From: Prevotella sp.
GTDB lineage: Bacteria > Bacteroidota > Bacteroidia > Bacteroidales > Bacteroidaceae
Assembly: GCA_017428055.1 (NCBI GenBank)
Contig: JAFRRN010000078.1
Coordinates: 1 to 64,000 of the forward strand
Length of the DNA: 64,000 nucleotides
Direction: 5' to 3'
Below, one piece after another: positions 35,490 through 50,611 of this stretch (within the stretch, counting starts at the first letter, position 1; each line of letters begins with the position of its first letter). A model generated the notes under the pieces. That model saw only the letters and a list, made by a program, of their open reading frames with translations, made no database searches and had not been told where the DNA came from. Position numbers and translations under genes: made by a program.

Positions 35490-36311
35490 ATGAAAACGCA
35501 AATCACCATCCTCGGCACAGGCAACGCCTTTGTGACACGTTGCTACAACACGTGCTTTTTCCTTCACAACGATGAGACAGCCCTCCTCGTCGACGCCGGC
35601 GGCGGCAACGGCATCTTGCGGCAGTTGGAAGATGCGCACATCCCCATTTCCCTCATCCATGACATCTTTGTCACCCATGCCCACACCGACCATATCATAG
35701 GTGTGCTGTGGGTCATCCGCCTCTTTCTGCAACAAAAGGCGAAAGGGAAATGCGACGGGGTAATCCACATCTATAGCCACGAGAAGGTGTTGCGCGTCCT
35801 CCAAGGCATGATGACCGACCTCCTTCCCAAGAAACTGTCCGCGCAAATAGGCACCACCGTCCTCTTCCACGAACTCCGCGACCGCGACGTATTCGATGTG
35901 GGAAACATCCATTTCCAATGCTTCGACATCCTCAGCACCAAGGAAAAGCAATTCGGGTTCACCGCATGGCTCCCCGACGGGCAACGCCTCGTCTGCTTGG
36001 GCGACGAGCCTTACAACGAGCATAACCGTGAATTGGTAGAGGGAGCGGACTGGCTGATGAGCGAGGCTTTCTGCAAATATGCTGACCGTGACATCTTCAA
36101 ACCATACGAAAAACACCACTCCACCGCCCGTGATGCCGCCTTGTTGGCCCAACAATTAGGTACCAAGAACCTCATTCTCTACCACACGGAGGACAAAACC
36201 CTCGCCACCCGCAAGCAATCCTACACCGCCGAGGCAAGGGAAGTATTCGATGGAAACGTCTATGTTCCCGATGACTTGGAGACCCTCTCTCTATCGAAAG
36301 AAGTAACTTAA
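35490..36311 (+). CDS. Metallo-beta-lactamase-fold hydrolase (RNase Z-like)
   Basis: 273 aa starting at MKTQITILGTGNAFVTRCYN, the classic opening strand of RNase Z/ElaC-like proteins. Metal site THAHTDH (HxHxDH) is near residue 70. DEPYNE and later HHSTARDAALLAQQ and LYHTED supply further metal/active-site residues. It could be a tRNA 3' processing enzyme or another phosphodiesterase; the gene is close to a tRNA cluster, but that may be chance. Its stop overlaps the convergent gene's stop (36308-36311). Confidence 0.88.
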   Translation: MKTQITILGTGNAFVTRCYNTCFFLHNDETALLVDAGGGNGILRQLEDAHIPISLIHDIFVTHAHTDHIIGVLWVIRLFLQQKAKGKCDGVIHIYSHEKVLRVLQGMMTDLLPKKLSAQIGTTVLFHELRDRDVFDVGNIHFQCFDILSTKEKQFGFTAWLPDGQRLVCLGDEPYNEHNRELVEGADWLMSEAFCKYADRDIFKPYEKHHSTARDAALLAQQLGTKNLILYHTEDKTLATRKQSYTAEAREVFDGNVYVPDDLETLSLSKEVT

Positions 36312-36886
36312 AGAGGCGGCATCCAAGGAAGGGGAATGCCATTCCTTATCATCTCTTGTTTAATTTTGAAAATTCGGCTGTATTCCTTGGCATCCACTTT
36401 TTTACGCTGATGACAATAGTTACAAGGTGTTGCAGTTATCAGGTCTATATCCATCAGATTTCCGCCGCCTATAAAGCCTGTACCGAAACACATGGGACAA
36501 TCGTAATACTGTTTTTCCACATACGGCCATTTGCTCTCATCCATCGATTTTAATTTTCGAGCAGTATTTTCATCCACTTTACAGAGACCACTACACCCAA
36601 AGCATCTTATGTGTAAATCACGTGGATCGAAGCCTTCACCATCGCAAATGGGACAATTTACTTTGCGTAACTGTTGTGAATCATAATATACACTACTATT
36701 TGAATTCAATTCTGTTTCCTTTTCGTTTGTATTAAACGTTGTGGATTGTTCTGTTTCTTTTTCTGTAGTGCTATAATTCGGAATTGGACCAACTTCTCCT
36801 CCTTGCTTTTTATTCACAAGCATACCCAATAGGAATGCTATTATTACTACGCAAATTACCAATAGAATTGAATTATTAACTTTCAT
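36308..36886 (-). CDS. Membrane-anchored zinc-knuckle protein
   Basis: 192 aa. One N-terminal membrane helix (ILLVICVVIIAFLLGML), a Thr/Glu/Asn-rich linker (residues 30-75), then four Cys pairs in a DnaJ-like arrangement: CPICDGEGF, CFGCSGLC, CPMCFGTGF and CNYCHQ. The spacing suggests two zinc sites of the DnaJ central-domain type, without a J domain. A chaperone-like or thiol role at the membrane is possible. Last gene at the left end of the signalling island. Confidence 0.7.
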   Translation of the reverse strand: MKVNNSILLVICVVIIAFLLGMLVNKKQGGEVGPIPNYSTTEKETEQSTTFNTNEKETELNSNSSVYYDSQQLRKVNCPICDGEGFDPRDLHIRCFGCSGLCKVDENTARKLKSMDESKWPYVEKQYYDCPMCFGTGFIGGGNLMDIDLITATPCNYCHQRKKVDAKEYSRIFKIKQEMIRNGIPLPWMPPL

Positions 36887-37003
36887 ATCTTCTTTCCTTT
36901 GTTATGATGAATGTGTAATGTAATTATTCGAAATCAAATGTGCTTGTGCCATATTTATTAACAATGCCAAAATAATACCAACTACTATGATTTATTTTAC
37001 AAG

Positions 37004-38119
37004 TCATTTTACAATCTGTAATTCTTGTAGTCGTTTTGTGGCAGACGCATAACCTTGTTGGCTACTCTTTCGATAGTATCTGGTTGCTTCTTTAATTGAC
37101 TTTTGTACAGCGTCTCCGTGTTCATACATCCATCCAAGGAAATACATTGCTTGTGGATCGAATTGATCAGCTGCTTGCCTGAAGAGACCAAATGCTTTAT
37201 CTTTGTCCTTTCCTGTTGATAGATTTCCATAATAATATATCTGAGCAAGGCGATTCATTGCACTAGCATTATCTCCTTTCACAGCACATTCATACCACTT
37301 TGCTGCATCAATATAGTTTTTCTCCCTTCCCTCGCCAAATTCAGCCATTCTCCCTAAAAAGTATTGAGCTGAAGCATGATTCTGTTTAGCGGCCTTAAAA
37401 AACCAATCGATGGCTGTCTTGTAGTCCTTTTTAGCATAGAACTTGTAACCAAGAATGTATTGGCCTTCTGCCACTCCCTTGCTTGCAAGGACGCTATCAG
37501 TTTTTTCTAATTCTTTATTCCAATTGGTATAAATATCTCCACCGTAACTCATAAAAAAACTTCTTTTTCTATTTTCACCTATATTTTGATAAAGACAACT
37601 TACCCCAAGACTTGTGTATCCTCCGTCATACTCATAGATGAAAGGTACAACTTGTTCATTCTTTTTATTAATAGCACCCCATTTTCCATTTTTTTTGACC
37701 AACGACACAACGTCTTCTCTAAAACCGTATTTTAATTCGGGATCATATTCAAAAGGAATAATAACCTTCCCATGTCTATCGATAAAACCCAACTTACCAT
37801 TTTTTACTACTCCACCAAGACCACCTCTAAAAGAATATGCTTTCTCATATTCTAAAGGGATTACTTCCTTACCGAGCCAATCTATATAACCATATCGACC
37901 GTCTATGCTTACAGTAGCACGGTTTGAATTAATTGACACATCAGAATGGAAAGAACCTGCCGTATTATAAACAAATGGGGTAATGAAGTTCCCTTGCGCA
38001 TCAATGAATGCATACTTTCCATCTTTTTTCACAAAAGAAGGATCTCCATATTTAAATTTATCCATCTCATCATAGATACATGGAAGCACTTCTTTTCCAT
38101 TAGGTTTAATGCATCCCCA
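37004..38119 (-). pseudogene. WG/Sel1-repeat protein, 3' part after an in-frame stop
   Basis: Continues in the same frame as 38120-38725 once the TAA at 38120-38122 is read through (the first possible Met restart is at 38089). It has several WG-type repeats (KKDGKYAFIDAQGNFI, VKNGKLGFIDRHGKVI, KKNGKWGAINKKNEQV) and then Sel1/TPR helices (AIDWFFKAAKQNHASAQYFLGR, AAKWYECAVKGDNASAMNRLAQ). Interrupting codon context is K-D-G-stop-W-G, where every intact repeat has K, so a single AAA to TAA change is the simplest reading. If translation restarts at 38089 a product without signal peptide would result. Confidence 0.75.
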
Positions 38120-38725
38120 TTATCCATCCTTTCTCACCCTAATCAGTGAATCAGTATCCATAACAACACCTTGCTCTTCTGCCCAGCTTAAACCATCATA
38201 AATTAATGGAATGACCAGTTCCCCTTTTTCATCAATATAACCATTTTTCGTCTCCCCCTTATCATTCCTTTTAGCTACTTTCCTTAATATCTGATGTTCA
38301 ACCCAAACAAATTTTTTTTCATGTTCGTGATTGTTCAGACCAAGATTATCATACATGAGGGGAACTACAACATTGCCTTCTTTGTCAATTAGACCGTATT
38401 TATCTCCATAAGGGCGTTCTATTCTTACCACAGCCAACCCATTGCTACCATATTTGTATATTTCAGAATACGTCTCACCTTGTTTCAATTTAGCTACGTC
38501 CTCGTATAAGATTTCATGTTTTTTGTGTACTTTCTTATTCCAATTATTATTGTTCGATGGTACATTTCTCTTTACTGATTTTTTATCTACTGTGTTTACT
38601 ACCGGTTTTTCATTTTCGATGTCTTTGACTTTCTGTGCTTTTGCATCCATCATGGGGAATTGTAATCCCATCATTGTCAGCAATCCACAAAAAAGAATTT
38701 GCCTACATAGTTTTCTTTTCATCAT
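38120..38725 (-). pseudogene. WG-repeat protein, 5' part ending in premature TAA
   Basis: 201 aa as read. A signal peptide (ILFCGLLTMMGLQFPMMDAKA) is followed by a Lys/Asn-rich stretch and three WG-like repeats (YGDKYGLIDKEGNVVVPLMYD, then NGYIDEKGELVIPLIYD). It stops at RVRKDG-TAA in the middle of a canonical repeat, and the repeat continues in frame as WGCIKPNGKEVLPCIYDE. The full-length gene (37004-38725) would code for about 573 aa, like its neighbour at 38782. Secreted or periplasmic. Could also be a sequencing error or a recent null allele. Confidence 0.78.
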
Positions 38726-38781
38726 TTTTCCTTTTTTGAGTAATTTATAATGTTATTAATACTTTCGGAATGGTTCGTCAT

Positions 38782-40284
38782 TTATTGATTTCTTCTTTCT
38801 ATTTTCTCTATGCACTTTTTTATCATACCGTCACAATCTGATTTCCCACCAGCCTCCTTTGATTTTTGGAAATAATCCATCGCCATTTTATAGTCAACAG
38901 TTACTCCTTGCCCATTATAATATTGAAGACCAAGGTTGAAATATGCAGTGGCAAGATAGTCTTTTTTGTTCGATTTAGTCTGTTGATCAATCAACTTAAA
39001 GTAACAATCTCGTGATTGTTGATAGTCTTCCATCTTGGCATAATTGAAAGCTAAAAGGAAATAGCTATGAGGATGATATTCAGCTGCCATTTTCCAATAA
39101 CCAATCGCAATGTTGATGTCTTTCACCGCTCCCCCTTTTCCTTCTTGATAACATTCACCTAACTCACATGCGTAAACAGCTTCATATTTATCAATCTTCC
39201 ATTCTCCATCATTCATTTGTTTTTGCCTTTTTTCGTATTCTTTCAATGCGACAAAATACCTTTCATTGTTATTGTCCCTATACTCTGAAATACACTCTTT
39301 CAACTCATTCCATTCCAAACATTCTGGACGGAACTGATAATTTCCCACTAACGATCCAGCCTTATCTATCAAAGCATATTCATGATGATGGGATTTATCT
39401 GAAACCCAGGCAACACCGTTTTCAAAATAACCCACTTTCTCATAAACACAAGGTATCACAATTTCCCCAGACTTGTCGGCAAATCCCCATCCACTCGTGC
39501 TATCTTTCATGACTGGACACATGCCTTCTTGGAAATGTTGTACTAAATGAAATGATTTATCACCAATCCTGTTTCCTTTCTTGTCAACAAAAAAGATAGC
39601 TGGTGAATCATCATAAATATCACCCTCTGACACAGCAGCGACACCTTCGCTAAAAATTGTTGCAAAAGAATAATTAAACGGCAATACTGTACGTCCATTT
39701 TTATCAATATAACCCACACTGTAATAATAATATTCACCATTGGCATCAGTGAAAAACTTTGCAACAGCTGCCATCCCCTCGTGAAACCTATTCATGTGAC
39801 TAAAAAAAGAAATAGGGAGACTATATTGATGTACATATTGACATGCAATAACCAAATCACCCCTTTCATTAACAAAGCCTATCTTGGGGTAATCAAAGGG
39901 AAAATTTGAAGACTCGTCTTTCCAATCACTCTTTTTTGTTACTGGCATCAATCCTTCATTCCAATCACCTTCAGATTCATATTGTGCCATTTTTTGCGCA
40001 AAAGACAGTTCTTTGGCTTTCACGCTCGTATTTGATCCCATGGCATTGTTACATTTCTTTATCCAATAATTTAAATCATTACTATTTGGCGTGTCGGGGC
40101 AAGATTTAGCCGCATTAAACACCTGTTTCGCTCGTTTGAAATCTTTCCTACTAAAAGTATTTATCGCTTCTTTTCGCGTATCGCTATAACATGTTTGTCC
40201 AAATGATTCTTTGGGACTAATTAACCCCATTGCCACAAAAAATAACACTTGAAACATTTTGATTTTTAACTGTATCGTTTTCAT
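38782..40284 (-). CDS. Secreted WG-repeat and Sel1-repeat protein
   Basis: 500 aa. A signal peptide (VLFFVAMGLISPKESFG) precedes a helical segment (residues 30-110), then about five WG repeats (FDYPKIGFVNERGDLVIACQY, YYYSVGYIDKNGRTVLPFNY, ADKSGEIVIPCVYEKVGY) and C-terminal Sel1/TPR repeats (AIGYWKMAAEYHPHSYFLLA, AYFNLGLQYYNGQG). It is paralogous to the interrupted gene to its left and starts 13 nt after the kinase gene stop. The repeats suit protein binding; a sensor or scaffold for the adjacent kinase is inferred. Confidence 0.85.
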   Translation of the reverse strand: MKTIQLKIKMFQVLFFVAMGLISPKESFGQTCYSDTRKEAINTFSRKDFKRAKQVFNAAKSCPDTPNSNDLNYWIKKCNNAMGSNTSVKAKELSFAQKMAQYESEGDWNEGLMPVTKKSDWKDESSNFPFDYPKIGFVNERGDLVIACQYVHQYSLPISFFSHMNRFHEGMAAVAKFFTDANGEYYYYSVGYIDKNGRTVLPFNYSFATIFSEGVAAVSEGDIYDDSPAIFFVDKKGNRIGDKSFHLVQHFQEGMCPVMKDSTSGWGFADKSGEIVIPCVYEKVGYFENGVAWVSDKSHHHEYALIDKAGSLVGNYQFRPECLEWNELKECISEYRDNNNERYFVALKEYEKRQKQMNDGEWKIDKYEAVYACELGECYQEGKGGAVKDINIAIGYWKMAAEYHPHSYFLLAFNYAKMEDYQQSRDCYFKLIDQQTKSNKKDYLATAYFNLGLQYYNGQGVTVDYKMAMDYFQKSKEAGGKSDCDGMIKKCIEKIERRNQ

Positions 40285-40297
40285 ATATCTTAATTTT

Positions 40298-42523
40298 TTA
40301 TTTCTTATTATTTCTTGAATTATCTTTAATATATCTTTTTGCTCTGGCTCTAATTATATTCAAATTCTTTTCACATGCATCCTGAGCTGATTTGGGAAGC
40401 AATCCGTTCTTTGAAGCTATCAAATTGGAGATATATTCCTCATTAATTCTACCATATAGAACACTATCATAATCAAAAGCACTATGAGATGAGAGTTGTT
40501 TCACTTTATCATTCAATTCACAGGCCACCAGTATAGAATCTAAATAATCGGCATATTTATTGTTTTCATTATACTCATCCTTATTTAATTTGAGTATAGA
40601 AAGAATCCTTTTTTGATAGTTTCCAACGAGTATAGACATTTCGTTTTCGTTGACTTTTTTGAAAATACTTCCGTCCTTGTTATACCAAATACCAATATAA
40701 GGTCTATTGTTATTGAACAATCCCTCGTAATAGCTTCCATCCTTTGACGTAAACTTACCTTCCTTGAGTTTGTCGTTCTCAAAAGACCCTTTGTAAATTT
40801 CGCCATTTCTCCATGTCAGAGTACCGTTTGTTCTTTTACCATTAATGAATATTCCCTCAAATTTCTCTCTTTCCTCTGGGTCGTCCACTGGATATGTTGC
40901 CGTACCCCTTCCATTTGGAACACCTCCTAATGCCTGACCTGAATAAGAAAACATCTTATTACCATTTACGTCTCGTATATCAACGTTACTTATATTTAAT
41001 ATAAGGTGAATTGAATCTTCCTGTATATCAGGTATAGTATCAACAGCAATGGGAAGCGGATTAATAATAGTATATATTTTTTTAGCTCCAAATACAAGCA
41101 ATAAACATCCAAGGCCTATTCCAACTAAATAAAGCACTTTTTTCCACGGAAAAGGTTTCTTGTAATGGGTATCTACAAGGTACTGGGTATTGTTAGCTGC
41201 AAAAGTAACCCAACGCAAGTTCGAGCCACATCGAAACTCGTCAACAATCACTCTTTTGGTCTTCTTCTTGCATAAATCCAAGAACTGCTGCTGTGACATC
41301 GTAATGTCTCCTTTCGCCAAAACGCTCTTATCTTCTTGACGGTGATGATTGTTTTGGTCAAAAAACTCATAGATGTCGTATTTTGGACGTTTTGTCATTC
41401 CTGATGGGGAATTACCCGTTCTTTCATCTGTAGCTGTTGCATTATATTGAATAAAGAAAGGAGTCCTTTTTGACACAGAAATGATTTCGTACAATTTGCC
41501 ACTGTTTTTCAATAAATACCCTATGGGTAATTCTGGTACAAAGATAGATTCTGTTTTTCTTTCTCTTAAACTTTGACCACAGACTTCCTTTATAAAATCA
41601 CTGACATCTTTTGTACGCTTTTCTTTTTCTTTCTGCAAACCATGTAAAATAGCGTTTCTAAAAGAAGAGTTAAGAGACATTGGCAATTTCTTGTCTATTA
41701 ATTCCTCTGTGACATCGTCTGCGTACGGTGGTTCTTCTCCCGTAACAAGATAATACAATGTGGCGGCTAATGCATACACATCCACTTGCGGAGCGAATGT
41801 CGTAATGCCTACGTATTGCTCCATAGGTGAAAAACCACGTGACCCCCCCGGGGAGGTATGGGTAGTCGTTAAATCTCCATTTTTATTAAAATGGCGTGAC
41901 TCTCCAAAATCTATTAGAACAGGGTCAACTTTACCATTGAGATGTTTCCGAAGCATGATATTGTCATGCTTAATATCGCAATGAAGTAGGGGTGTTCTCA
42001 TCGTATGCAATTTGTAAACAGCTTCTGCTATGGGTAGAATGTATGATAAGGCAACTTCTTCATGCAAAGCCCCTTTCTGCCTAACCACATCACGAAGATT
42101 ACCATTTTCAAGGTACTCCATTACATAATATGCAGTATCATTTGAACGAAACACCTCGTTGACTTGCACTATATTTTCATTTTCCTTACAAATTCGATTT
42201 AGTAATTCTGCCTCATGCTCAAACTCGCGCAACCATTCCTTAACATCTCGTTTTGCCTCTTCTGCTTTAGGAAACATCATTCGCGGATTATCTGGCTCAC
42301 GCCAACATTGGCCTTTTACAAAGAATTCCTTGATTGCAAATGGTTGCGAGATATTTCCAATCTTACTGGTAGCAAGGTAGGTTATACCAAACCCACCCTG
42401 CCCCAAGGGTTTCTCTATGGTATATGTAAGTCTCTCGCCTGACGGGAAACCTAAAATGTTCTTGGATGTCGAACGAAGTTGAGTTCCTTTATTAAGAGCA
42501 TATTTAATATCGACATTTGCCAT
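40298..42523 (-). CDS. Ser/Thr protein kinase with transmembrane segment and MORN repeats
   Basis: 741 aa. The Hanks-type kinase domain occupies about residues 30-310, with glycine loop GQGGFGITYLA, Lys in FAIKEFF, catalytic HCDIKHDN and metal-binding DFGESR. SRGFSPMEQY stands where APE occurs. One membrane helix lies near 464-490 (VGIGLGCLLLVFGAKK), then MORN-type repeats (NGKRTNGTLTWRNGEIYKG, residues 525-620) outside the membrane. So a cytoplasmic kinase with a periplasmic MORN sensor is likely. A run of seven C/G lies at 41843-41849 inside the activation segment. It lies between Sel1 and WG genes, 13 nt on each side. Confidence 0.93.
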   Translation of the reverse strand: MANVDIKYALNKGTQLRSTSKNILGFPSGERLTYTIEKPLGQGGFGITYLATSKIGNISQPFAIKEFFVKGQCWREPDNPRMMFPKAEEAKRDVKEWLREFEHEAELLNRICKENENIVQVNEVFRSNDTAYYVMEYLENGNLRDVVRQKGALHEEVALSYILPIAEAVYKLHTMRTPLLHCDIKHDNIMLRKHLNGKVDPVLIDFGESRHFNKNGDLTTTHTSPGGSRGFSPMEQYVGITTFAPQVDVYALAATLYYLVTGEEPPYADDVTEELIDKKLPMSLNSSFRNAILHGLQKEKEKRTKDVSDFIKEVCGQSLRERKTESIFVPELPIGYLLKNSGKLYEIISVSKRTPFFIQYNATATDERTGNSPSGMTKRPKYDIYEFFDQNNHHRQEDKSVLAKGDITMSQQQFLDLCKKKTKRVIVDEFRCGSNLRWVTFAANNTQYLVDTHYKKPFPWKKVLYLVGIGLGCLLLVFGAKKIYTIINPLPIAVDTIPDIQEDSIHLILNISNVDIRDVNGNKMFSYSGQALGGVPNGRGTATYPVDDPEEREKFEGIFINGKRTNGTLTWRNGEIYKGSFENDKLKEGKFTSKDGSYYEGLFNNNRPYIGIWYNKDGSIFKKVNENEMSILVGNYQKRILSILKLNKDEYNENNKYADYLDSILVACELNDKVKQLSSHSAFDYDSVLYGRINEEYISNLIASKNGLLPKSAQDACEKNLNIIRARAKRYIKDNSRNNKK

Positions 42524-42536
42524 AGACCGTTCTTTA

Positions 42537-44090
42537 CTATTTAATTGACTTTAACATCGTGACAAGGCTATTATTCTGCTTGTGCTTCTTCAACTGCTCA
42601 ATACGTTTTTCCGAGTTTGCCAAGTCGGGGATAATACCAATCTTTTTCACATAACACTCTGCCAAGTTCTTTGCCGATTCTACGGTCAGATGTCCTTGTG
42701 CTTCTGCTTGAAGATACAATTTGGCAGCTTTTGACAAATCCATTGTCACACCTTTACCCTCCATATACTTATCTCCAAGTTTGCATTGTGCATAAGCTAC
42801 CCCATGATTAGCGGCATTATCTAATAGTGCCAATGCCCGTTTCTCATCAACATCTACACCTGTGCCTGTTTCAAGCATAGAAGAAAGATAATAGTCTGCG
42901 GCAGGGAAGTTACCAGAAACTTTGTCGAGGGTCTTAATGGCTTTCTTGACATTACGTTTAGCATACTCCTTATTAGCGTAACATACAGCAAGCATGGTCT
43001 TACCAGCAGCATTTTTTGCTTTATCCACCTTCTTGAAATACGAAATGGCAGATTCATAATCCTTATCTACATAGTATTTCTTAAGACCTTGTAAATATTG
43101 GGTATATGTACCATTATGGTCATCATTCAATAGTTGTATTAGTTCTTTTTGATGGCTTGGAGCCGCATCTGCCAACAACTGCGTTGCAAAATAATAGTCT
43201 TGTTTTACACCATTGCCATTTAGGTAGCATAAACCCAGCAACCATTTAGCCTTGAAAATATTTCTATGTGCGGCGGTGCGAAGATAACCTACAGCTTTGC
43301 TATAGTCTTGGTCAATACCATCTCCTTCATAATAAATTCTTCCCAACTGGTAGTATGCCATCGTAAAATCCTTGTCTGCTGCATTCTGAAGTAATTTAAT
43401 GCCTCCTTTCTTATCTTGTACCATTCCTTGACCATTGAACATCAAGTAACCATAGTAATAGGTAGCACCCACCTCACCTTGTTTTACCGCTTGTTTAAAC
43501 CATGTCACAGCCTTGTCAGCCTGTTGATTATTCAAATAGTGTAGGGCTAATTCATATTGACTGGCGACATCTTGTTTGTTAGCCGCCTGTTCCATGAAAT
43601 AAACATACTTTTGATTATCCTTCTTTGTTCCAATTCCTTCCTTATAGCACTCTTTCAGCAAAAGGCTGCTAAAAAGGTTTCCCGTATTCTTGACAATTGC
43701 CTCGTGTTGGGGAATTATTGTTTTGCTTCCTTTCTTTAAAGCCGACTTATAAAGATTGACTGCCATCGTAGAATCTTTCTTGGCGCCTCGTCCTAACTGA
43801 TAGCACATGGCCATATTACCAATAGCATCCACATTGTCCTGTTTAGCTGACAATGCCCAATATTGGAGGGCTTTCTTATAATCCTGACGAAGTGAACCTT
43901 TGCCTGTGTAATACCATACACCGACAGTATTCTGTGCTTTAGCATCCCCTTTGTCAGCCCTGTCTATCATCAAGGCTATGCTATCAACTTTTTCAACCTT
44001 TTCTTTATTTTGCTTTTTCTTATCAGGAACAGCATTCACCATTGCCACAGAGAAAGTGGCTAATATAATCATTACAATAACCTTTTTCAT
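42537..44090 (-). CDS. Secreted Sel1-repeat protein
   Basis: 517 aa with a signal peptide (IILATFSVAMVNA), then about a dozen Sel1-like repeats (AQNTVGVWYYTGKGSLRQDYKKAL, GATYYYGYLMFNGQGMVQDKKGG, AYYQLGRIYYEGDGIDQDYSKAV, ending AQCKLGDKYMEGKGVTMDLSKAA). No catalytic domain. In periplasm such proteins bind other proteins or peptidoglycan-linked factors. It is in the operon between PP2C and the kinase, 11 and 13 nt apart, so a role as ligand or scaffold for the kinase's outer part is inferred. Confidence 0.88.
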   Translation of the reverse strand: MKKVIVMIILATFSVAMVNAVPDKKKQNKEKVEKVDSIALMIDRADKGDAKAQNTVGVWYYTGKGSLRQDYKKALQYWALSAKQDNVDAIGNMAMCYQLGRGAKKDSTMAVNLYKSALKKGSKTIIPQHEAIVKNTGNLFSSLLLKECYKEGIGTKKDNQKYVYFMEQAANKQDVASQYELALHYLNNQQADKAVTWFKQAVKQGEVGATYYYGYLMFNGQGMVQDKKGGIKLLQNAADKDFTMAYYQLGRIYYEGDGIDQDYSKAVGYLRTAAHRNIFKAKWLLGLCYLNGNGVKQDYYFATQLLADAAPSHQKELIQLLNDDHNGTYTQYLQGLKKYYVDKDYESAISYFKKVDKAKNAAGKTMLAVCYANKEYAKRNVKKAIKTLDKVSGNFPAADYYLSSMLETGTGVDVDEKRALALLDNAANHGVAYAQCKLGDKYMEGKGVTMDLSKAAKLYLQAEAQGHLTVESAKNLAECYVKKIGIIPDLANSEKRIEQLKKHKQNNSLVTMLKSIK

Positions 44091-44101
44091 AATTGTTTTT
44101 T

Positions 44102-45007
44102 TTAGTTAAATAATTGTTTAATCCATTTTTGCAAACGAGTTTCTTTTTGTCTTTGTGTGGACTCGATTTCCTCTAATGTACTATCAGAGTGTGAGAACTT
44201 CTTGGTTTCACCAGTTGTCTCAATTGATTTATCATCAAGATTGTCTGATTCCACCTTTATAATCGGAATAAGTATAGCGGTATTGTTATCATCGCCGTCC
44301 TCGCATATTTGGGCAAGTTTTTTTACCTTTTTCTTATTACTTATGTCCGTGTTCAATATAATATTCGTCAATTCGTCATCATCGACCTGATTGTACACGC
44401 CATCAGTACAAAGCAAGATATAGTCACCATTTCTAACATCTTTCGTTTTCAAGACCGTTGCCATGCAACGACTTTGGTCGGAATCGACAGACTCCATGTA
44501 GCGAGTTATCACATGCTTTTGTGGGTTGTCAATGGCTTCATCTGGCGTTATCATCCCGTTATGCACCATCGAGTTTACTAGCGAGTGATCTTCCGAACGA
44601 TATATAATACCCTTCCCTTTACGGAAATGATATATACGGCTATCCCCAATGTGAGCCAACGTGCATCCGCCATCATGAAAACATGCAAAAGTCAATGTTG
44701 TCGCCATTTCCCCATTGTACCTTTTAGCCATTCTGTCTAAAGCATTATATGCTGCATCCAGCACCTTGGAAAATTGGTCATTAGGGAAGTAGGTTTCAAC
44801 TCTCATCCCATCTATTGTTCTCGCGATAGCCCGACAAACAGTTCGACTGGCAATTTCACCATCCTCACTGCCACCGACCCCATCGCAAACCACAAAATAA
44901 CGTTGTGAGGCAGACGGCTTGTCGTTATCAGGATAGCGTGAGTCTTCTTGATGGTCACGCAAACCTTGTTGGAGAAACGAGTAGGATTGTCCAAGTGTTA
45001 TTTTCAT
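44102..45007 (-). CDS. PP2C-family Ser/Thr phosphatase
   Basis: 301 aa. Metal-binding motifs are RDHQEDSR (Asp22) and VVCDGVGGSEDGE (Asp42), then HIGDSRIY, LLCTDGVYNQVDDDE and DDNNTAIL, the set expected for PP2C. The C-terminus beyond residue 255 is Ser/Thr/Glu-rich and then basic (RLQKWIKQLF). Cytoplasmic; it probably dephosphorylates the targets of the adjacent kinase. The FHA gene upstream overlaps its start by 4 nt (ATGA). Confidence 0.94.
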   Translation of the reverse strand: MKITLGQSYSFLQQGLRDHQEDSRYPDNDKPSASQRYFVVCDGVGGSEDGEIASRTVCRAIARTIDGMRVETYFPNDQFSKVLDAAYNALDRMAKRYNGEMATTLTFACFHDGGCTLAHIGDSRIYHFRKGKGIIYRSEDHSLVNSMVHNGMITPDEAIDNPQKHVITRYMESVDSDQSRCMATVLKTKDVRNGDYILLCTDGVYNQVDDDELTNIILNTDISNKKKVKKLAQICEDGDDNNTAILIPIIKVESDNLDDKSIETTGETKKFSHSDSTLEEIESTQRQKETRLQKWIKQLFN

Positions 45008-45615
45008 TTTTTTGCTGGTTTAAATGTAAGCGTTGTGTTTCCCAACTTAATGATGTCGCCATCATTGAGGTAGAAGCTGCTTCCTACAGGCTGTTCTTTT
45101 CCATTGATAAGAACAGGATTAGTTGCATGTTCTACTGTCAGATGGAAGGTGTACCCCCTTGAAGTCTTATCTACATCTATATAAATGGATTTTGCGCTTG
45201 CGTATTCATCCTTGAGTGATAAATCGGATGGGTTGTCGTCATCTTTTCTTCCCACATAGTTCTTTCCTACACGAAGGATAAATTGCTTTCGCCCTGTAAG
45301 AGACCACCAAGTAAGTTTCGCGTTTGACTTACTACCCATCACCACTAATTTCTCTGTAGGTTTCTTAGGGTTGACACCTTTGATGATTATAGGGACATTA
45401 CATGTCTTATGCATAACCCTAAAGGTTATAGGCTCAACGGCTTTTACAAGCACAGGCTTCCCACATATAGGACACGTAACAACGTATTCCTTTTCTACAA
45501 TTGCTTGCTCTTTCACAGCATATACTCCCTTTTTGGAGGTCTGAATGACCTTACCAAGTTCAGGTATAGATGCAAGTTTCTTTTCCTCAATAGGAATATT
45601 CATTTTTGATTCCAT
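45004..45615 (-). CDS. FHA-domain protein with N-terminal zinc knuckle
   Basis: 203 aa. A CPICGKP zinc-knuckle half near residue 49 precedes a middle beta region. The FHA domain covers about 110-200 (FILRVGKNYVGRKDDDNPSDLSL, HATNPVLINGKEQP, FYLNDGDIIKLGNT), with the usual Arg and Asn positions for phosphothreonine binding. No membrane segment. It would read phospho-sites set by the kinase/PP2C pair to which it is translationally coupled. Start may be Met1 or Met5. Confidence 0.9.
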   Translation of the reverse strand: MESKMNIPIEEKKLASIPELGKVIQTSKKGVYAVKEQAIVEKEYVVTCPICGKPVLVKAVEPITFRVMHKTCNVPIIIKGVNPKKPTEKLVVMGSKSNAKLTWWSLTGRKQFILRVGKNYVGRKDDDNPSDLSLKDEYASAKSIYIDVDKTSRGYTFHLTVEHATNPVLINGKEQPVGSSFYLNDGDIIKLGNTTLTFKPAKK

Positions 45616-45639
45616 ATATGTTGTTTATAATGATGATAA

Positions 45640-45808
45640 TTACGCATCCAGTATGTCATCTTGAATCAAGTCGCTGTCATCCTCATCTTCATCTTCAATA
45701 TCATCTTCAGTGTCATCATCTATAAGCCGTTCATCCTCCCCACTTTCATCTTCCAACAACTGGGCAAGCAATTCCTCATCTGAAATTTCCTCGTCAACAG
45801 GGGGGGGG
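45640..45808 (-). other. Out-of-frame acidic tail and G9 homopolymer
   Basis: Nine G's (C9 on the coding strand) at 45800-45808 precede a frame that encodes a long acidic tail ending at the TAA at 45640-45642 (VDEEISDEELLAQLLED, then many D/E, LIQDDILDA). With ten C's this tail is joined to the upstream gene; with nine it is not. It reads as coding sequence displaced by one base. Confidence 0.7.
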
Positions 45809-46628
45809 TGGGAATTAACACACTATCTTCCTTTATTTCCTCATAAGTGGGTTTGTGAGTATCAATAATGTCTTTTGTTGGGTCATCGCCCTGGGGTTCA
45901 TCTTCATGGCGAACCAGATAACCACCCGTCTTTTCTACCATTGCTTCCAAGTCACTTGCCATCAAATTGCCCTCAGCTTCTCCCACATAATTCCCTTCCA
46001 TATCATAAACGTTGGTAAAAAAACCATCACCATCATCATCTGATAATAGGAACTGAGCCCCATCAGGGGTATGAATAGCAGCAACAAGCGTCTCAGACCC
46101 ATCTGCCCTATAAAGTGTGCCAATTTCATCCACGGAAATTATCGTAGGAATATCAAGATCATTGGGATCAACGGTTTGCTCCTCAATAATCTGTTGGGCA
46201 ATTAAATTGGGATCTACCTCATTTGGGTTATCTACTTTTGACTCTGGAGTGTCGGTTGGATGCTGTGTTTGGGTGTTATCAGCCTGATGAGTTTGAACTG
46301 TTGAGTCAGTTGGCTGAGGCTCAGTGATGTTCTCAACTCCTTGTGATTGTGTCTCTTGCACAGTCTGCTGGGTGTCCGTCTCATCAATCTGCTGATTCTC
46401 TTGAGATTCAGGCTTCTCCTCCAACTTATCTTCTGTTTGGGGGTCATCATTCTCATCTTTGGGTTTGTCTTGATGTCCATGATGTGAACCAACATAGTAT
46501 CCTGCACCACTATTGGCTGCTCCAAATGCGACAATCCCCGCAGCTGTCAAGATGGTGCGGGTATTGTTTCTTCCACCTTTCACATTGTTGCCATTGGCAT
46601 TTCCAATCTTAAATTTCTTGGTTTTCAT
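45720..46628 (-). CDS. Acidic membrane-associated protein, frame broken at a C9 tract
   Basis: 302 aa as read. A basic N-terminus (KTKKFKIGNANGNN) precedes one short membrane helix (TILTAAGIVAFGAANSGAG), a long Gln/Thr/Glu-rich disordered linker (residues 55-150), and a folded part with LLSDDDGDGFFTNVYDMEGNY resembling an EF-hand loop. At residue about 275 the reading frame leaves the acidic tail because the C tract is nine long; the last 25 residues look random. The intact protein would be about 328 aa. It has its own -7 element and starts the PP2C-kinase operon. Confidence 0.72.
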   Translation of the reverse strand: MKTKKFKIGNANGNNVKGGRNNTRTILTAAGIVAFGAANSGAGYYVGSHHGHQDKPKDENDDPQTEDKLEEKPESQENQQIDETDTQQTVQETQSQGVENITEPQPTDSTVQTHQADNTQTQHPTDTPESKVDNPNEVDPNLIAQQIIEEQTVDPNDLDIPTIISVDEIGTLYRADGSETLVAAIHTPDGAQFLLSDDDGDGFFTNVYDMEGNYVGEAEGNLMASDLEAMVEKTGGYLVRHEDEPQGDDPTKDIIDTHKPTYEEIKEDSVLIPTPPLLTRKFQMRNCLPSCWKMKVGRMNGL

Positions 46629-46655
46629 AATTCAAATAATTAATGTTTGACGTTG

Positions 46656-46663
46656 CAAATTTA
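46656..46663 (-). promoter_or_regulatory. -7 element before the acidic-protein/PP2C/kinase operon
   Basis: TAAATTTG on the minus strand, 27 nt before the ATG at 46628. It divides the island into two transcripts: LytTR-FHA-caspase and acidic protein to kinase. Confidence 0.45.
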
Positions 46664-46756
46664 CGCTATATTTTGATACCATCAGCATCCATTTAAGCAT
46701 ACTGGACAAAGGCATAGGGGTTCTTTTACCAATCATGGGGGTTCCATGACGAAGCC

Positions 46757-47476
46757 TTACCATCTTGTTATCACGGTATCATGAGAGGAACTTGGACCTA
46801 TCAATTGTGGATGCTGTTTCACGCTATAATTTTTTGTACGTGCCGTTACGTCATTATAGACATAGCGGAAGAGTTCCATGAGTGTTACCTGGCGGTCGTT
46901 ATTCTTGTCAGCCTTTCCTCGAAGCCCTTTCAACAAGGCTTGCGTATATAACCCATGACCTATCCAGTTATTTTCAGCAGAATATTCGTCTGCTCGTGAT
47001 GACATCATAAAGGTAATGCCCTTATGAACGTCAGCCCAGTAATACTCCATAGGATTTACGCTGCCAGACTTACATGCGTCAATGAAACAAAAAATTTCCT
47101 TTGTTTTTGCATTAGATAGTATTTTCATCAGGTCTTCATAGTAAAAACCCTGAAAGCCATATGTTATCATCCGACCTGTATCACCATGACCAGAAAAGAA
47201 GAAGATAATCTTATCTTCAGGCTTGGCGAGTTGGATAATAGCATTTAGCTTCTTTTCAATGTTGGAAATTGTCGCATAGCTACTTGTTAGGGTTGCAACT
47301 ATCATTTCTTGTTTGTCAAGGACCTTCTTTAATTGTTTGACATCCTTAGTCGTGTTCTGAAGATTCCAATCTTGAAAACCATAATTAGATACACCTGTCA
47401 AAAGAGCATACGTTTTTTGTGCGTTGATTCCCATGGAAATCAATGCCACAGCGAGTAAAAAAGATATACGTTTCAT
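46757..47476 (-). CDS. Secreted caspase-like peptidase (C14)
   Basis: 239 aa starting at MKRISFLLAVALISMGINAQ; the start at 47506 overlaps the FHA gene end and lacks sense. A signal peptide is followed by the caspase fold: GVSNYGF, then His97 in FFFSGHGD and Cys135 in CFIDACKSGS. S1-pocket-type residues follow in MMSSRADEYSAE. Secretion to the periplasm is unusual in a signalling cluster; it may be a proteolytic effector. One base separates it from the preceding FHA stop (TAATATG). Confidence 0.9.
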   Translation of the reverse strand: MKRISFLLAVALISMGINAQKTYALLTGVSNYGFQDWNLQNTTKDVKQLKKVLDKQEMIVATLTSSYATISNIEKKLNAIIQLAKPEDKIIFFFSGHGDTGRMITYGFQGFYYEDLMKILSNAKTKEIFCFIDACKSGSVNPMEYYWADVHKGITFMMSSRADEYSAENNWIGHGLYTQALLKGLRGKADKNNDRQVTLMELFRYVYNDVTARTKNYSVKQHPQLIGPSSSHDTVITRW

Positions 47477-47477
47477 A

Positions 47478-48176
47478 TTAGTTATGTTGAATGTTACATG
47501 TTCCACATCTCATTAATTCTATTTCAGGGTCTGTAAGTATATGGTTGCATTCTGGGTTAGGACATTGAGAAAAACACTTTTTCTTGGCTTTAACCAGTTT
47601 TTCCATCTCTTTCTTTTTTTCTTGAGGGTTATATAAAAATCTCATCATTCTCGTCACAATATTCATCAGCATCCCCCCCCCAATACCAGCCCCGAGGCTT
47701 ATGCCATTGCCCACTTCAAATTGTTTGCCTATACAATAGATTGCCACAGCTATCAGTATTGGTAGAGCTATCTCAAGAAAAAAAGATTTCAATTTGATTC
47801 TTCTTTCTCTCTTTTTCTCATAGGAAGATAATTCTTCCATCTTGTTGTGAATAAAATCAAAATCCTCATCAAAGTTTCCAAATTCTTTCACTTGTTTAGC
47901 ATAAAAGCAACATCCCGAGGTATCGCCCGCCCCCAATATAACGAATGTCATGGGGGTAATCCGACACTTGCCAGGCTGTTTTTTGTTTCCAATCAGCCTT
48001 AGCCTACCATCATCTTCACGAATAGATGTTCCGTTTGTAGACCAGCGGTCTTCTATCCACCAAATACCATAATCGTCAATGGTAATAACAGCATGTTTTC
48101 CACTCACAGCAACTTGTGTTTGCTTTAAATGAAATGGTTGATTTCCTTCTGTTCTACCCAATATGATTGTTTCCAT
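47478..48176 (-). CDS. FHA-domain membrane protein with C-terminal zinc ribbon
   Basis: 232 aa. The FHA domain (residues 1-95) has VSGKHAVI and RWSTNGTSI as its conserved core. A charged helix (residues 110-140) leads to one or two membrane helices (ALPILIAVAIYCIG and ISLGAGIGGGMLMNI), and a CPNPEC...CGTC zinc ribbon closes the protein. A run of nine C (nine G on the coding strand) at 47673-47681 codes for part of the GGG in the second hydrophobic segment; loss or gain of one base there would truncate the zinc ribbon. It overlaps the LytTR gene by 23 nt. Confidence 0.88.
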   Translation of the reverse strand: METIILGRTEGNQPFHLKQTQVAVSGKHAVITIDDYGIWWIEDRWSTNGTSIREDDGRLRLIGNKKQPGKCRITPMTFVILGAGDTSGCCFYAKQVKEFGNFDEDFDFIHNKMEELSSYEKKRERRIKLKSFFLEIALPILIAVAIYCIGKQFEVGNGISLGAGIGGGMLMNIVTRMMRFLYNPQEKKKEMEKLVKAKKKCFSQCPNPECNHILTDPEIELMRCGTCNIQHN

Positions 48177-48546
48177 CTTCTTTCTTTTCCTTTATTTTAA
48201 TACTCTTAGAAATAGCATTCTTATAAGATTTCAAAATGTTTTTAGGAATTGTCACTCTTATCTCATTTTTGTCATTGTCTGAAAGAACAAGAACTTGTTT
48301 CAAAACATCAACTTTCGTCAGATAAGAATGGTTTATGATAAAACTACGTCCAAGTCTAATGAAACGATTCTTGTCATTATAGGATTTTAATGTCACTTCA
48401 AGTTTAGATATTCCAGTCGTAAGGGTAACTTCTTTCTTCGTGATATAGACAACACGCGAATAGTTGCCATTAGCCTGTACGACAGCTATCATATCCGTCT
48501 CAATACAATTCAATTCATCCCGTGTATTAAAATACAATTTTGCCAT
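48154..48546 (-). CDS. LytTR-domain DNA-binding protein without receiver
   Basis: 130 aa consisting essentially of a LytTR domain (IAVVQANGNYSRVVY, FIRLGRSFIINHSYLTKVD, IRVTIPKNILKSYK) and a short Lys-rich tail. There is no response-regulator receiver domain, so its activity must be set otherwise, plausibly through the co-encoded FHA protein. First gene of the LytTR-FHA-caspase part. I see no clear -7 element; an A/T-rich leader precedes it. Confidence 0.88.
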   Translation of the reverse strand: MAKLYFNTRDELNCIETDMIAVVQANGNYSRVVYITKKEVTLTTGISKLEVTLKSYNDKNRFIRLGRSFIINHSYLTKVDVLKQVLVLSDNDKNEIRVTIPKNILKSYKNAISKSIKIKEKKEDGNNHIG

Positions 48547-48689
48547 ATATACTTATAAATATAGTTTCTTAAAGAAATACAAAATGCTTTAATCTACCAT
48601 TTCGCCCTTCTTTCAAATGAAATTATAACACTATTATTCTTGGAATCTCCAACAAGAAAATATTGGGTTTGATGGTTAAGGCTACAAAA

Positions 48690-49106
48690 CATAAAAAGCG
48701 TGAGACCCGTACTCGCTACTTATCTCACACTCCTGGCCTTCGAACTTGCCACCTCGTTTAGATAAGTAACTTCGAAGCCCACGCCGAATATGTATATATA
48801 ACCCTCTCACAGGAAAAACCCATAAATAAATTTGGGTTTCCAACGAAAGGGATGCGTATAAACACATCCCGAGGGCATCTACCATTGCAACATCTGCTAC
48901 GAGGTTTCCAAGTGTTCGAAGTTTGGAGTATAGCGATGAAGCGTTGAGTAAACGCCTTTCTACATCATGTAGTGATTTCTGCCTTTTCCCACCCATAACC
49001 CGCTTTGCTTTGGCAAAATGCCTCACTCGGCTCGGCGTAGGTTGTCTTTAACTGTGTGCTATGACGGACAAGTCCATCTTTACACATCACTCAAGACACA
49101 GAAATC
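48690..49106 (-). ncRNA. Candidate structured non-coding RNA, about 400 nt
   Basis: Framed by a promoter (49112-49141) and an intrinsic terminator (48691-48730). Several hairpins lie inside: GGGATGTG/CGCATCCC-type near 48857, AAACCCA/TGGGTTT near 48822, CTAC..GTAG near 48967. A stem CTTCGAA/TTCGAAG (48738-48777) encloses a loop strand GTTACTTATCT (48760-48770) that can pair with AGATAAGTAGC (48715-48725), a pseudoknot. The 114-aa frame across it is not protein-like. I could not match RNase P, tmRNA, SRP or 6S by eye. Confidence 0.55.
48691..48730 (-). terminator. Intrinsic terminator of the candidate RNA
   Basis: Minus-strand GTGTGAGA (48730-48723) pairs with TCTCACGC (48705-48698), one G-U, loop 17 nt, followed by TTTTTAT. 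The 3' arm of the pseudoknot overlaps the stem by 3 nt, so the two may compete. Confidence 0.75.
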
Positions 49107-49111
49107 GGCTA

Positions 49112-49141
49112 TAAAATTACAAAAAAAAGACATCCTACAAA
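49112..49141 (-). promoter_or_regulatory. Promoter of the candidate RNA
   Basis: TAATTTTA (49112-49119) with TTTG (49138-49141), spacer 18, on the minus strand. The last base of the -7 is off consensus. Confidence 0.45.
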
Positions 49142-49289
49142 CATATTTCATAGTTTTTTTCAACAAAACGATATGACAAACTGGTTTTTTAACTAGTTTT
49201 CCTGTTATTATCCTAATTCATTGCTATGACAATATGATACTGACATCTATAACCTAATAAAAAAAACATTTGGCGCAATCGGTAAAAAA

Positions 49290-49344
49290 GTTATTCTGCA
49301 AATCACACTTGAAATACCTTGTTTTCAAATTGTCGCAGAATAAC
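49290..49344. repeat. 10-bp inverted repeat
   Basis: GTTATTCTGC (49290-49299) and GCAGAATAAC (49335-49344) are exact complements with 35 nt between. It lies 41 nt beyond the stop of the leftward hydrolase gene and could act as a 3' end hairpin. No T run. The remainder of 49145-49384 is A/T-rich without a gene. Confidence 0.45.
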
Positions 49345-49384
49345 CTTGGAAGTTTGATTTGTGTAGATTTATGTTCCTAATGAT

Positions 49385-50611
49385 TCATGGACTCACTTCA
49401 CGAATCCACTCTGCGATGTCGTGAAGCACCTCCTCCGAGATGGTTTGCTCTATCTCGCCATATTCATCCACCGCTCCCGTCTTGCATGGTTGGAAGAGAT
49501 GGTTCAATTCGGGATATTCCTTGATCTTGCTTTTCTTATTCGGTGGCAGGAGGGAGCGTATCGTTGAGAGGTTGCTTTCCGTCAACACCTGAGAGTCCTT
49601 GCCGCCATTGAGTACCAAGGAGGGACAAGTGACGTGGGCGATGTCATCGGCAGGGTCGTAGTCAATGAAATAGTCGTACCAAGGATTAGTCTTTTGCATC
49701 ATCATCAGCAGCCGCATCTGCTTCACGGTCATGGTGGCAGGCTTCCCTTGTTGGCGAAGGATGAAGTTGGTCTGTTCCGTCACTATGCTATCGCCACGGA
49801 TGCCTGTCCCTGCCAGGGTTATGATGAAATCGGGCTTTTTCTCCTTGGCAAGCATGAAGGCGATAGTGCCTCCCTCGCTATGGCCCAACACCCCTACCCT
49901 ACTGAATTTGCGCATCCCCCTCAGGAAGGCTATCCCTGCGGCGGCATCATCCTTGAAGTTGACGGTGGTGGCACGTTGCACGTCGCCCTTCGAGCCCCCC
50001 ATCCCCCTGTCGTCATAGCGCAATGTGGCGATGCCCTGCCGTGCCAAGTAGTCGGCGATGACGGCAAAGGGCTTATGGTCGAACAATTCCTCGTCGCGGT
50101 TTTGCAACCCACTACCCGATACCATCAGCACGACGGGAACCTTTTTCTTGCCCTCATAACCCACTGGCCATGTCAGCGTACCTGCCAGCGTCGCGGTATC
50201 TTTCTCGTTGACGAATGTCACTTCCTCCGTCTTATAAGGATAGGGCGGCTTGGGTGTCTGAGGACGTTGGCGTACCATCTCGCCCCGTTCCATCACCAAG
50301 GGCAAGCGGTAGCCCATCTGCGTGAACGTACCCGACAGCTTCCCATCTGCCACCCGTCCCTCGTAACTGCCGCCAATCGTGGGGAAACTCACATTCACCG
50401 AGTCGTCCGTAATAGTGTTCACCTGTGCCTCGATGCCCTTTGCCCCTTGGTTGGGTGAGTCCATCGTGCATTTATTCCCGTCCACATGCAACACCAAGGG
50501 TATCTTCCTGACACCCAAATCCAAGTCTCCATGCCAAGTGCCTTGCACTCCCTGCGCCCCTGCCATCATAGGTAAGAGGGTCGCTATCAATAAGAAAAAG
50601 CTCTTTTTCAT
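49385..50611 (-). CDS. Secreted alpha/beta hydrolase (S33/serine aminopeptidase-like)
   Basis: 408 aa starting at MKKSFFLLIATLLPMMAGAQ, a clear signal peptide; the upstream Met at 50632 adds a non-signal stretch. An N-terminal beta domain (residues 22-130) precedes the hydrolase domain, with SGSGLQNRDEE, RYDDRGMGGS and the nucleophile elbow GHSEGG (Ser near residue 240). Catalytic His is likely in LNHLFQPC near the end. An esterase or peptidase acting in the periplasm is expected. Single gene; the promoter was not found. Confidence 0.88.
   Translation of the reverse strand: MKKSFFLLIATLLPMMAGAQGVQGTWHGDLDLGVRKIPLVLHVDGNKCTMDSPNQGAKGIEAQVNTITDDSVNVSFPTIGGSYEGRVADGKLSGTFTQMGYRLPLVMERGEMVRQRPQTPKPPYPYKTEEVTFVNEKDTATLAGTLTWPVGYEGKKKVPVVLMVSGSGLQNRDEELFDHKPFAVIADYLARQGIATLRYDDRGMGGSKGDVQRATTVNFKDDAAAGIAFLRGMRKFSRVGVLGHSEGGTIAFMLAKEKKPDFIITLAGTGIRGDSIVTEQTNFILRQQGKPATMTVKQMRLLMMMQKTNPWYDYFIDYDPADDIAHVTCPSLVLNGGKDSQVLTESNLSTIRSLLPPNKKSKIKEYPELNHLFQPCKTGAVDEYGEIEQTISEEVLHDIAEWIREVSP

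Follow-up and report, generated by a model that had tools for sequence, protein, structure and literature searches.

A conserved Bacteroidota gene cluster that probably encodes a receptor Ser/Thr-kinase system with a diversifiable outer layer and a periplasmic caspase

Introduction

A compact minus-strand gene cluster at positions 36308–48546 of a 64,000-nucleotide stretch of Prevotella sp. DNA (contig JAFRRN010000078.1 of assembly GCA_017428055.1; the whole stretch is hereafter called the window) encodes a transmembrane kinase, a PP2C phosphatase, two FHA proteins, a caspase, a LytTR regulator and repeat proteins. We consider it probable (roughly 0.6) that this cluster represents a conserved receptor Ser/Thr-kinase system of Bacteroidota, with a diversifiable outer layer and a periplasmic caspase. 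At the level of sequence, this reading is carried by gene linkage, kept active sites, a predicted membrane layout and diversified outer domains, and the arrangement looks like a bacterial counterpart of receptor-kinase signaling. Bacteroidota are among the main phyla of the gut and rumen, and to our knowledge their eukaryote-like kinases have been little studied. The gene set was not found described in the open-access literature that we searched, a scope that left most subscription papers and preprints outside. Its components are of known kinds newly combined, and there is a real chance that the system merits a name of its own.

Results

Conserved core of the cluster

As judged from the sequences, the core is composed of a LytTR protein, an FHA–transmembrane–zinc ribbon protein (FHA-TM-Zn), an acidic protein, a caspase, a zinc ribbon–FHA protein (FHA-Zn), a PP2C phosphatase and a kinase, in largely fixed order. 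Profiles of these families were built from kinase-centred loci (40 regions fetched out of 58 kinase rows) and then run on the loci of the best 80 of 399 confirmed caspase relatives, which comprised 75 short and 5 long caspases. One outcome named as refuting the original prediction was that the genes would not co-occur in other genomes, and they do recur together: at least four of the six other core families are present in 56 of the 75 short-caspase loci, and in 36 of 39 where the stretch is at least 15 kb. FHA-TM-Zn and FHA-Zn each occur in 63 short-caspase loci, PP2C and the kinase in 57 each, LytTR in 47 and the acidic protein, whose profile covers one of two subgroups, in 37. None of the five long-caspase loci, four from Saprospiraceae and one from another Bacteroidetes metagenome-assembled genome (MAG), has any other core family. 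Seen from the kinase, at least three other core families are present in 18 of the 40 regions and a single one in 3; the former figure is 17 among the 27 regions of at least 14 kb.

Gene order is largely conserved as well. The adjacent pairs FHA-Zn>PP2C, LytTR>FHA-TM-Zn, caspase>FHA-Zn, FHA-TM-Zn>caspase and PP2C>kinase were counted 52, 42, 39, 35 and 29 times, respectively, and a chance neighborhood was rejected because the order recurs across loci. Counts pooled over the 122 stretches (L034–L155) are not independent, since some places are represented twice (e.g., L046/L148, L057/L140 and L072/L143). Among 199 related genomes, strong caspase matches (>200 bits) were found in 18 and strong PP2C matches (>225 bits) in 32, with both in 16 (Fisher p = 5e-13); both cut-offs were set by eye at score gaps. 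The kinase is patchily distributed, with matches at E 1e-20 in 26 of these genomes, its own counted.

Relatives were found in Prevotella, Prevotellaceae, Muribaculaceae, Bacteroidaceae, Porphyromonadaceae and others, many of them from ruminant gut sites, and distant forms occur in Spirosoma, Dyadobacter, a Flavobacteriales MAG, Runella rosea and Parabacteroides distasonis, the last with the order LytTR-FHA-FHA-PP2C-kinase. Plasmid relatives of the PP2C amounted to 181 records, all below 60% identity and many from other phyla, of which the two best (Runella and Parabacteroides) were examined further; a search for phage copies of the caspase gave one weak match among 50,697 records. Outside this core, the Sel1 gene of the window, which has relatives above 350 bits in 14 of the 122 stretches, marks one subgroup. 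The zinc membrane protein, originally counted as part of the system, found no relative among the 40 kinase-centred regions and is not assigned to the conserved core.

The genome to which the window belongs carries three copies of the cluster, each with such a kinase: the window copy and those at C40 (L042) and C21 (L041). Elsewhere in the window, 50.5 kb gave no match to the core families. In the C21 copy, other genes stand between the caspase, at the far end, and the rest of the cluster. Within this third copy, a heptose-nucleotide pathway was also noticed (L041:13470-16508; kinase, isomerase and guanylyltransferase/phosphatase by eye), with a second acidic protein and then the caspase after it.

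Active sites and predicted membrane layout

Kinase alignments and transmembrane (TM) segments, signal peptides, Thr motifs and kinase pairs were analyzed in the 82 stretches that hold four or more core families; signal-peptide and TM calls were made with simple in-house rules, the latter by hydropathy. Across 106 aligned kinases (82 loci plus the window), the catalytic Lys is present in 106, the HxD Asp in 105 and the DFG Asp in 103, and the window kinase retains Lys65, Asp183 and Asp205. Its predicted TM lies near residue 460. Of 109 kinases, 95 have a predicted TM beyond residue 290 and 84 have exactly one TM; the median length outside is 152 residues. In the L042 kinase, hydropathy reaches only 1.36. 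PP2C residues D42-G43, D122, D202 and D240 are invariant in 13 of 13 sequences, as are caspase H107 and C145 in 11 of 11 and in the 14 rows of another alignment. A signal peptide was predicted in 66 of 79 caspase relatives. FHA-TM-Zn retains Gly7, Ser25, His28, Thr50 and four cysteines (205, 210, 224 and 227) in all 11 rows. These results agree with the original view of the kinase and PP2C as parts of a membrane phospho-relay, and the core set is predicted to span the membrane.

In L034, the slot of the acidic protein of the window is taken by a relative of it; the window protein also resembles, by slot and by eye at the N-terminus, a 23-member group from 22 loci, L042 included. The mean charge of the acidic proteins is about +2 before the TM and about −7 after it; the N-terminus is therefore probably inside. 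A role for calcium is hinted at by two features, an EF-hand-like loop in the caspase and DxDxDG stretches in the acidic protein.

A variable outer layer and its diversification

On the evidence of domain matches, the Sel1, WG, FGE, MORN and Lcl_C parts form a variable outer layer around the constant core. Pfam matches in 103 kinase tails (102 plus that of the window) include MORN in 9, Lcl_C in 8, FGE in 4, Sel1 in 3 and LRR_5 in 2, and those in the 140 of 284 extra operon genes that were scanned include Sel1 in 11, FGE in 8, LRR_5 in 3, WG in 2 and RVT_1 in 2. Signal peptides were predicted more often for extra operon genes than for flank genes (133/290 vs 91/349; p = 2e-7). The tail of the window kinase is 56% identical to that of the C40 kinase over residues 509–624. 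The original prediction of a kinase with a MORN tail holds for the kinase; both tails look MORN-like by eye only, with no Pfam MORN match in the window kinase.

Adjacent kinases illustrate how the outer domains change on a constant kinase. Once pairs lacking a predicted TM or with tails shorter than 60 residues had been left out, the tails scored less than 5 standard deviations above shuffles in 10 of 13 pairs (9 at ≤2.0), with kinase domains sharing about 58%; in the other three pairs (L051, L117 and L144) the tails are related. The tandem kinases of L086 (6056-8470 and 8498-10882) do not differ over their first 290 residues but have unrelated tails, a swap that is possibly a misassembly because the sequence comes from a MAG.

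Diversity-generating retroelements (DGRs) act on the same layer. A-biased repeat pairs (or T-biased, on the other strand) were detected in 4 of the 122 stretches and G/C-biased pairs in 0 of 122. All four carry a reverse transcriptase (RT) gene, recognized by Pfam RVT_1 in L042, L113 and L144 and by an in-house profile in L112. In L112, L113 and L144, the variable repeat is the kinase C-terminus, with 24/25, 21/23 and 23/23 mismatches at template A, respectively; it ends a full kinase with a predicted TM in L113 and L144, and the L112 kinase is cut by the contig end. In L042, in the genome of the window, the variable repeat ends an FGE protein whose gene starts 1 nt after the kinase, and 20 of 22 mismatches fall at template A; this DGR has one template and one variable repeat, and no further targets were found. 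Because DGR repeats and domain swaps both act on the outer layer, it looks like a sensor, as far as sequence can tell. The original idea of an outer face with a reading role is sharpened to this extent; MORN, Sel1 and WG proteins are not its constant parts.

Two further observations concern genes next to kinases of this family. An FGE protein with a DGR-like C-terminus lies beside a kinase in L037 (345-1556; G049); the 8.2 kb contig yielded no template repeat for it, and it may be served in trans; an RT match in L037 was rejected as a match to template-like sequence rather than an RT gene. DUF2971-like proteins (2 of the 140 extra genes match Pfam DUF2971) and a DUF1016-like protein (by eye) also lie beside cluster kinases (L061:8778-9380, L062:11121-12050 and L048:10848-11957).

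Candidate phospho-threonine motifs

In GarA/OdhI-type switches, an ETTxVF-like Thr motif is phosphorylated by a Hanks-type kinase and bound by FHA. Motifs that we take to resemble these sites were found in the acidic proteins and kinases. Of the acidic proteins, 62 were found in one subgroup and 23 in that of the window, with a readable part before the TM in 61 and 21; the motif sets contain 55 and 20 sequences after repeats had been removed, the window added and those without a fitting Met lost. In the window subgroup, M..T..[ILVFM] occurs near the start in 16 of 20 tails (shuffle mean 0.7, maximum 5); for some members of this smaller group the Met rule placed the start too late, and such cases are scored as misses. 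In the other subgroup, [DENKG]T[IVLMF].[DE] occurs in 16 of 55 (mean 1.9, maximum 7), and an earlier Thr pattern had been found in 29 of 61 (mean 2.6, maximum 9 in 500 shuffles). Cytoplasmic kinase linkers carry the ETxx form in 19 of 90 cases, above all 1000 shuffles (mean 5.9, maximum 15), whereas its frequency stays within shuffles in ectodomains (17/88; mean 14.2, maximum 26), PP2C tails (5/70), FHA-Zn N-termini (8/78), LytTR proteins (12/56) and the N-termini of flank-gene products (21/339). The Parabacteroides kinase linker has two such motifs (EETT/EETV), and the motifs of the two proteins are alike in some loci; in L148, for example, NETTIFEK of the acidic protein resembles EETIIEK of the kinase. 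The Thr motifs in the cytoplasmic tails of the acidic protein and kinase look like candidate FHA docking sites. The candidate motif belongs here to the tail of the acidic protein and to kinase linkers, whereas in GarA/OdhI it belongs to the FHA protein.

Discussion

Proposed mechanism

We propose the following model for the system. The outer layer would bind ligands at or near the cell surface; ligand binding would alter kinase activity, and PP2C would reset it. The kinase may phosphorylate the Thr motifs of its own juxtamembrane linker and of the cytoplasmic tail of the acidic protein, and the two FHA proteins would dock at the phosphorylated motifs, which would switch the LytTR regulator and a membrane complex. 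The acidic protein would relay this state across the membrane to the caspase, which could be under calcium control, as suggested by its EF-hand-like loop, and would cleave envelope targets. The most likely role of the system would be cell-surface surveillance (of phage, rivals or other contact) leading to regulated gene expression and envelope proteolysis. We infer the ligand, the caspase substrate and the output (the LytTR regulon and periplasmic caspase activity).

A bolder proposal, to which we give slightly less than even odds, is that these proteins constitute an undescribed, immune-receptor-like family of Bacteroidota receptor Ser/Thr kinases, in which the ectodomain is reprogrammed within a genome by DGRs and by outer-domain swaps on a constant kinase, and in which a phospho-Thr/FHA core connects through the membrane to a caspase in the periplasm. 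A recurring operon that joins a diversifying receptor kinase to its phosphatase, two phospho-Thr readers, a transcription factor and an exported caspase would offer a testable route leading from a ligand at the surface to an output, a natural example of hypermutable receptors and a well-defined context for asking what bacterial caspases do.

Observations that weigh against the model

Several observations speak against a conserved receptor-kinase system of this make-up. No partner gene is present in 19 of the 40 kinase-centred regions (8 of the 27 of at least 14 kb), and among 10 genomes with partnerless kinases a strong PP2C match is located elsewhere in 6 and absent in 4; such kinases may depend, as satellites, on a core located elsewhere. 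Nineteen of the 75 short-caspase loci have at most three other core families and 2 have none, some of them on short contigs. The caspase is missing from the otherwise good stretches L155, L059 and L067 and from the Parabacteroides stretch examined, in which the acidic protein has 84 residues and no TM. The structural model of the acidic protein is poor overall (mean predicted local distance difference test score, 64) and gave no match to solved structures at E 0.001, and the Lcl_C matches of the three variable kinase ends are below the Pfam cut-off. The ETxx form is nearly missing from the window subgroup of acidic proteins (1/21); the looser T..[DE] is not above shuffles in acidic tails (32/55; mean 21.7, maximum 35); and the Thr patterns were chosen after the sequences had been seen, with shuffles that ignore common ancestry, which inflates the counts. 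Lastly, two genes of the window copy are broken, and this copy carries no DGR.

Among the partnerless cases, G049, G043 and G104 (L036–L040, L043, L050, L054, L055 and L068) have several kinases of the family in stretches lacking any core partner; these are possibly satellite receptors.

Alternative explanations and relation to known systems

The threonine phosphorylation pathway of the type VI secretion system (T6SS), formed by PpkA, PppA and Fha1, shares with the cluster the trio of membrane kinase, PP2C and FHA, and the cluster might likewise be a regulator module for type VI firing. Two relatives favor this explanation: in G069 (L159), T6SS Clp and sheath genes start 3.4 kb from the LytTR gene, and on a Runella rosea plasmid (L158, 60-75.9 kb), whose record is listed as linear, T6SS genes occupy the far end and would adjoin the FHA/PP2C/caspase module if the plasmid is circular. 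The statement in the original prediction that no such machinery is present here agrees with the genome of the window, which gave no match to the two sheath families searched. Across the 16 genomes with strong caspase and PP2C matches, sheath family PF05943 was found in 0 and PF17541 (TssC) in 2, leaving 14 without a TssC match; PF17541 was also found in 0 of 14 control genomes. The Runella T6SS proteins had no match in the 122 stretches, though the T6SS of L159 and L160 was detected. Genomes with the system yet no T6SS already argue against a T6SS module, and the known pathway also differs from the cluster, which has a caspase, LytTR, an acidic protein and variable ectodomains. On the basis of the sheath-family and Runella-protein searches, we rejected the T6SS module as a general answer and regard it as very improbable. 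A loose genomic-island neighborhood of eukaryote-like genes without joint function, present here as a decaying copy, would account for the low GC content, the two broken genes and flank genes that were not found as neighbors elsewhere. This explanation is largely refuted by the recurrence of gene order and make-up in several Bacteroidota families with active sites kept, and we find it hardly credible.

The variable outer layer bears on two other explanations. It is rich in secreted repeat proteins, and many relatives come from ruminant gut sites, which would suit a regulator of surface adhesion or substrate sensing, whose outer repeats (Sel1, WG, LRR, FGE and Lcl_C) bind plant, host or neighbor surfaces, whose LytTR protein switches colonization genes and whose caspase trims the repeat proteins. 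No adhesion family is constant, however, and a search for a common site upstream of LytTR genes (55 stretches) identified no LytTR target, so that we hold this explanation to be unlikely while giving it appreciable weight. The DGR repeats of four loci could instead tune the sensors of an anti-phage or anti-invader conflict system, in which the caspase is triggered to kill or arrest the cell; we judge this to be rather improbable. Links between kinases, caspases and DGRs are described for conflict systems of cyanobacteria and other multicellular bacteria (PMC7517822, PMC7159879 and PMC10907252), and the systems of these papers are the nearest ones described. In these accounts, DGR variable proteins of cyanobacteria join a Ser/Thr kinase or orthocaspase to a C-type-lectin domain (PMC7517822), conflict systems use DGR sensors, caspases, kinases and FHA as modules, with some kinase, PP2C and vWA sets (PMC7159879, PMC10907252), and a protein kinase domain is among the DGR target domains of Thiohalocapsa (PMC7159879/PMC10907252). 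The cyanobacterial proteins thus resemble ours in having a Hanks-type kinase with a C-terminal DGR variable domain, and in including caspase homologues. The Bacteroidota proteins differ in that the kinase passes the membrane once and has its variable end predicted outside, the caspase is a separate protein predicted to be exported, and PP2C, two FHA proteins, LytTR and the acidic protein recur beside the kinase; in the text of PMC7517822, FHA is mentioned 0 times and phosphatase once. The frequent signal peptide of the caspase speaks against a conflict system. So do the PADLOC results for the 140 extra operon genes (E 1e-10), which, in the 25 of 27 families shown, were RT models, PDC-S31 in 2, a single dCTPase and a single PD-T4-6. 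A scan of 10 of the 12 open reading frames (ORFs) of the cluster found no specific PADLOC system; the matches were broad ones to kinase models (mad6, PD-T4-6 and others), PP2C and caspase, with Sel1 weakly matching PtuA1. MoxR-vWA ternary and DGR antigen-sensor systems are described with MoxR/vWA, STAND or GTPase cores, none of which is found among the 16 window proteins scanned; MoxR/vWA is also not among the 25 of 104 families shown for the 140 extra operon genes, where rarer cases could hide, and a vWA gene is present in the Runella relative.

Organization of the window copy

The eleven-gene set and its domains agree, MORN excepted, with the original prediction in both coordinates and Pfam matches (Table 1). 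The GC content is 0.355–0.41 within the island and 0.51–0.54 in both flanks. Neighboring genes mostly overlap or are spaced by less than 60 nt, as originally described; the wider gaps are 128 nt between the caspase and acidic genes, 117 nt ahead of the last gene and, if the acidic gene is taken in its given frame, 104 nt behind it.

Table 1 Genes of the minus-strand cluster in the window
Feature	Position	Strand	Evidence
LytTR DNA-binding protein without receiver (core)	48154..48546	-	Pfam LytTR 1.2e-6
FHA–transmembrane–zinc ribbon protein (FHA-TM-Zn; core)	47478..48176	-	Pfam FHA 4.3e-6
Caspase C14 with signal peptide, His-Cys dyad and EF-hand-like loop (core)	46757..47506	-	Pfam 2e-21
Acidic single-pass protein (core slot)	45640..46628 (given frame 45720-46628)	-	Sequence; relatives in slot
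Zinc ribbon–FHA protein (FHA-Zn; core)	45004..45615	-	Pfam FHA 8.1e-5
PP2C phosphatase (core)	44102..45007	-	Pfam PP2C_2 2.9e-14; NCBIfam Stp1-like 2.6e-45, below cut-off
Secreted Sel1-repeat protein (marks one subgroup)	42537..44090	-	Pfam Sel1 2e-42
Transmembrane Hanks-type Ser/Thr kinase, MORN-like outer tail (core; variable ectodomain)	40298..42523	-	Pfam Pkinase 3.8e-32
WG + Sel1 repeat protein (variable layer)	38782..40284	-	Pfam WG 5.3e-27, Sel1 7.7e-10
Second WG + Sel1 gene, interrupted (variable layer)	37004..38725	-	Pfam WG in both pieces
Membrane-anchored DnaJ-type zinc protein (last gene; outside the conserved core)	36308..36886	-	Pfam DnaJ_CXXCXGXG 2.1e-4, below cut-off

Two genes of this copy are interrupted. 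The second WG/Sel1 protein has the domains originally proposed but not an intact gene: ORFs 38120-38725 and 37004-38089 are a single reading frame split by an in-frame TAA at 38120-38122, in the middle of a WG repeat. Domain scans were run on the pieces separately, with no frame repaired, and the Pfam WG matches of the three ORFs concerned are 5.3e-27, 4e-28 and 2.3e-14. In the acidic gene, the frame is lost at a nine-C run (45800-45808); beyond it, an acidic tail resembling those of the relatives can be read in a different frame as far as 45640. Both defects, the TAA as well as the frame loss, may be damage or an assembly error, the nine-C run could be a phase-variable tract, and the window copy may be decaying.

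Upstream of the LytTR gene, a candidate promoter matching what we take to be the Bacteroidales-type consensus lies at 49138-49167, about 590 nt away; the pattern occurs 7 times in the window vs 1.7 expected. Among the 55 stretches compared, an ABfr-like promoter precedes the LytTR gene in 12 (shuffle mean 0.5, maximum 3), and the best shared 9- and 10-mers occur in 6 each (shuffle top 4 and 3). No empty insertion site was found in 100 genomes of the genus: the flank genes occur in 19 and 41 of them, never close together on one contig at the places listed outside the genome of the window. No tandem repeats were detected at 36000-50000. The region upstream of LytTR (48620-49130) has one partial 69% match in the same genome (G000:C31), with no multicopy element found there. 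Just past the island, the gene at 50769-51914 encodes a GH25 lysozyme-like protein that matches MORN weakly (E 0.02), echoing the outer repeats of the kinase.

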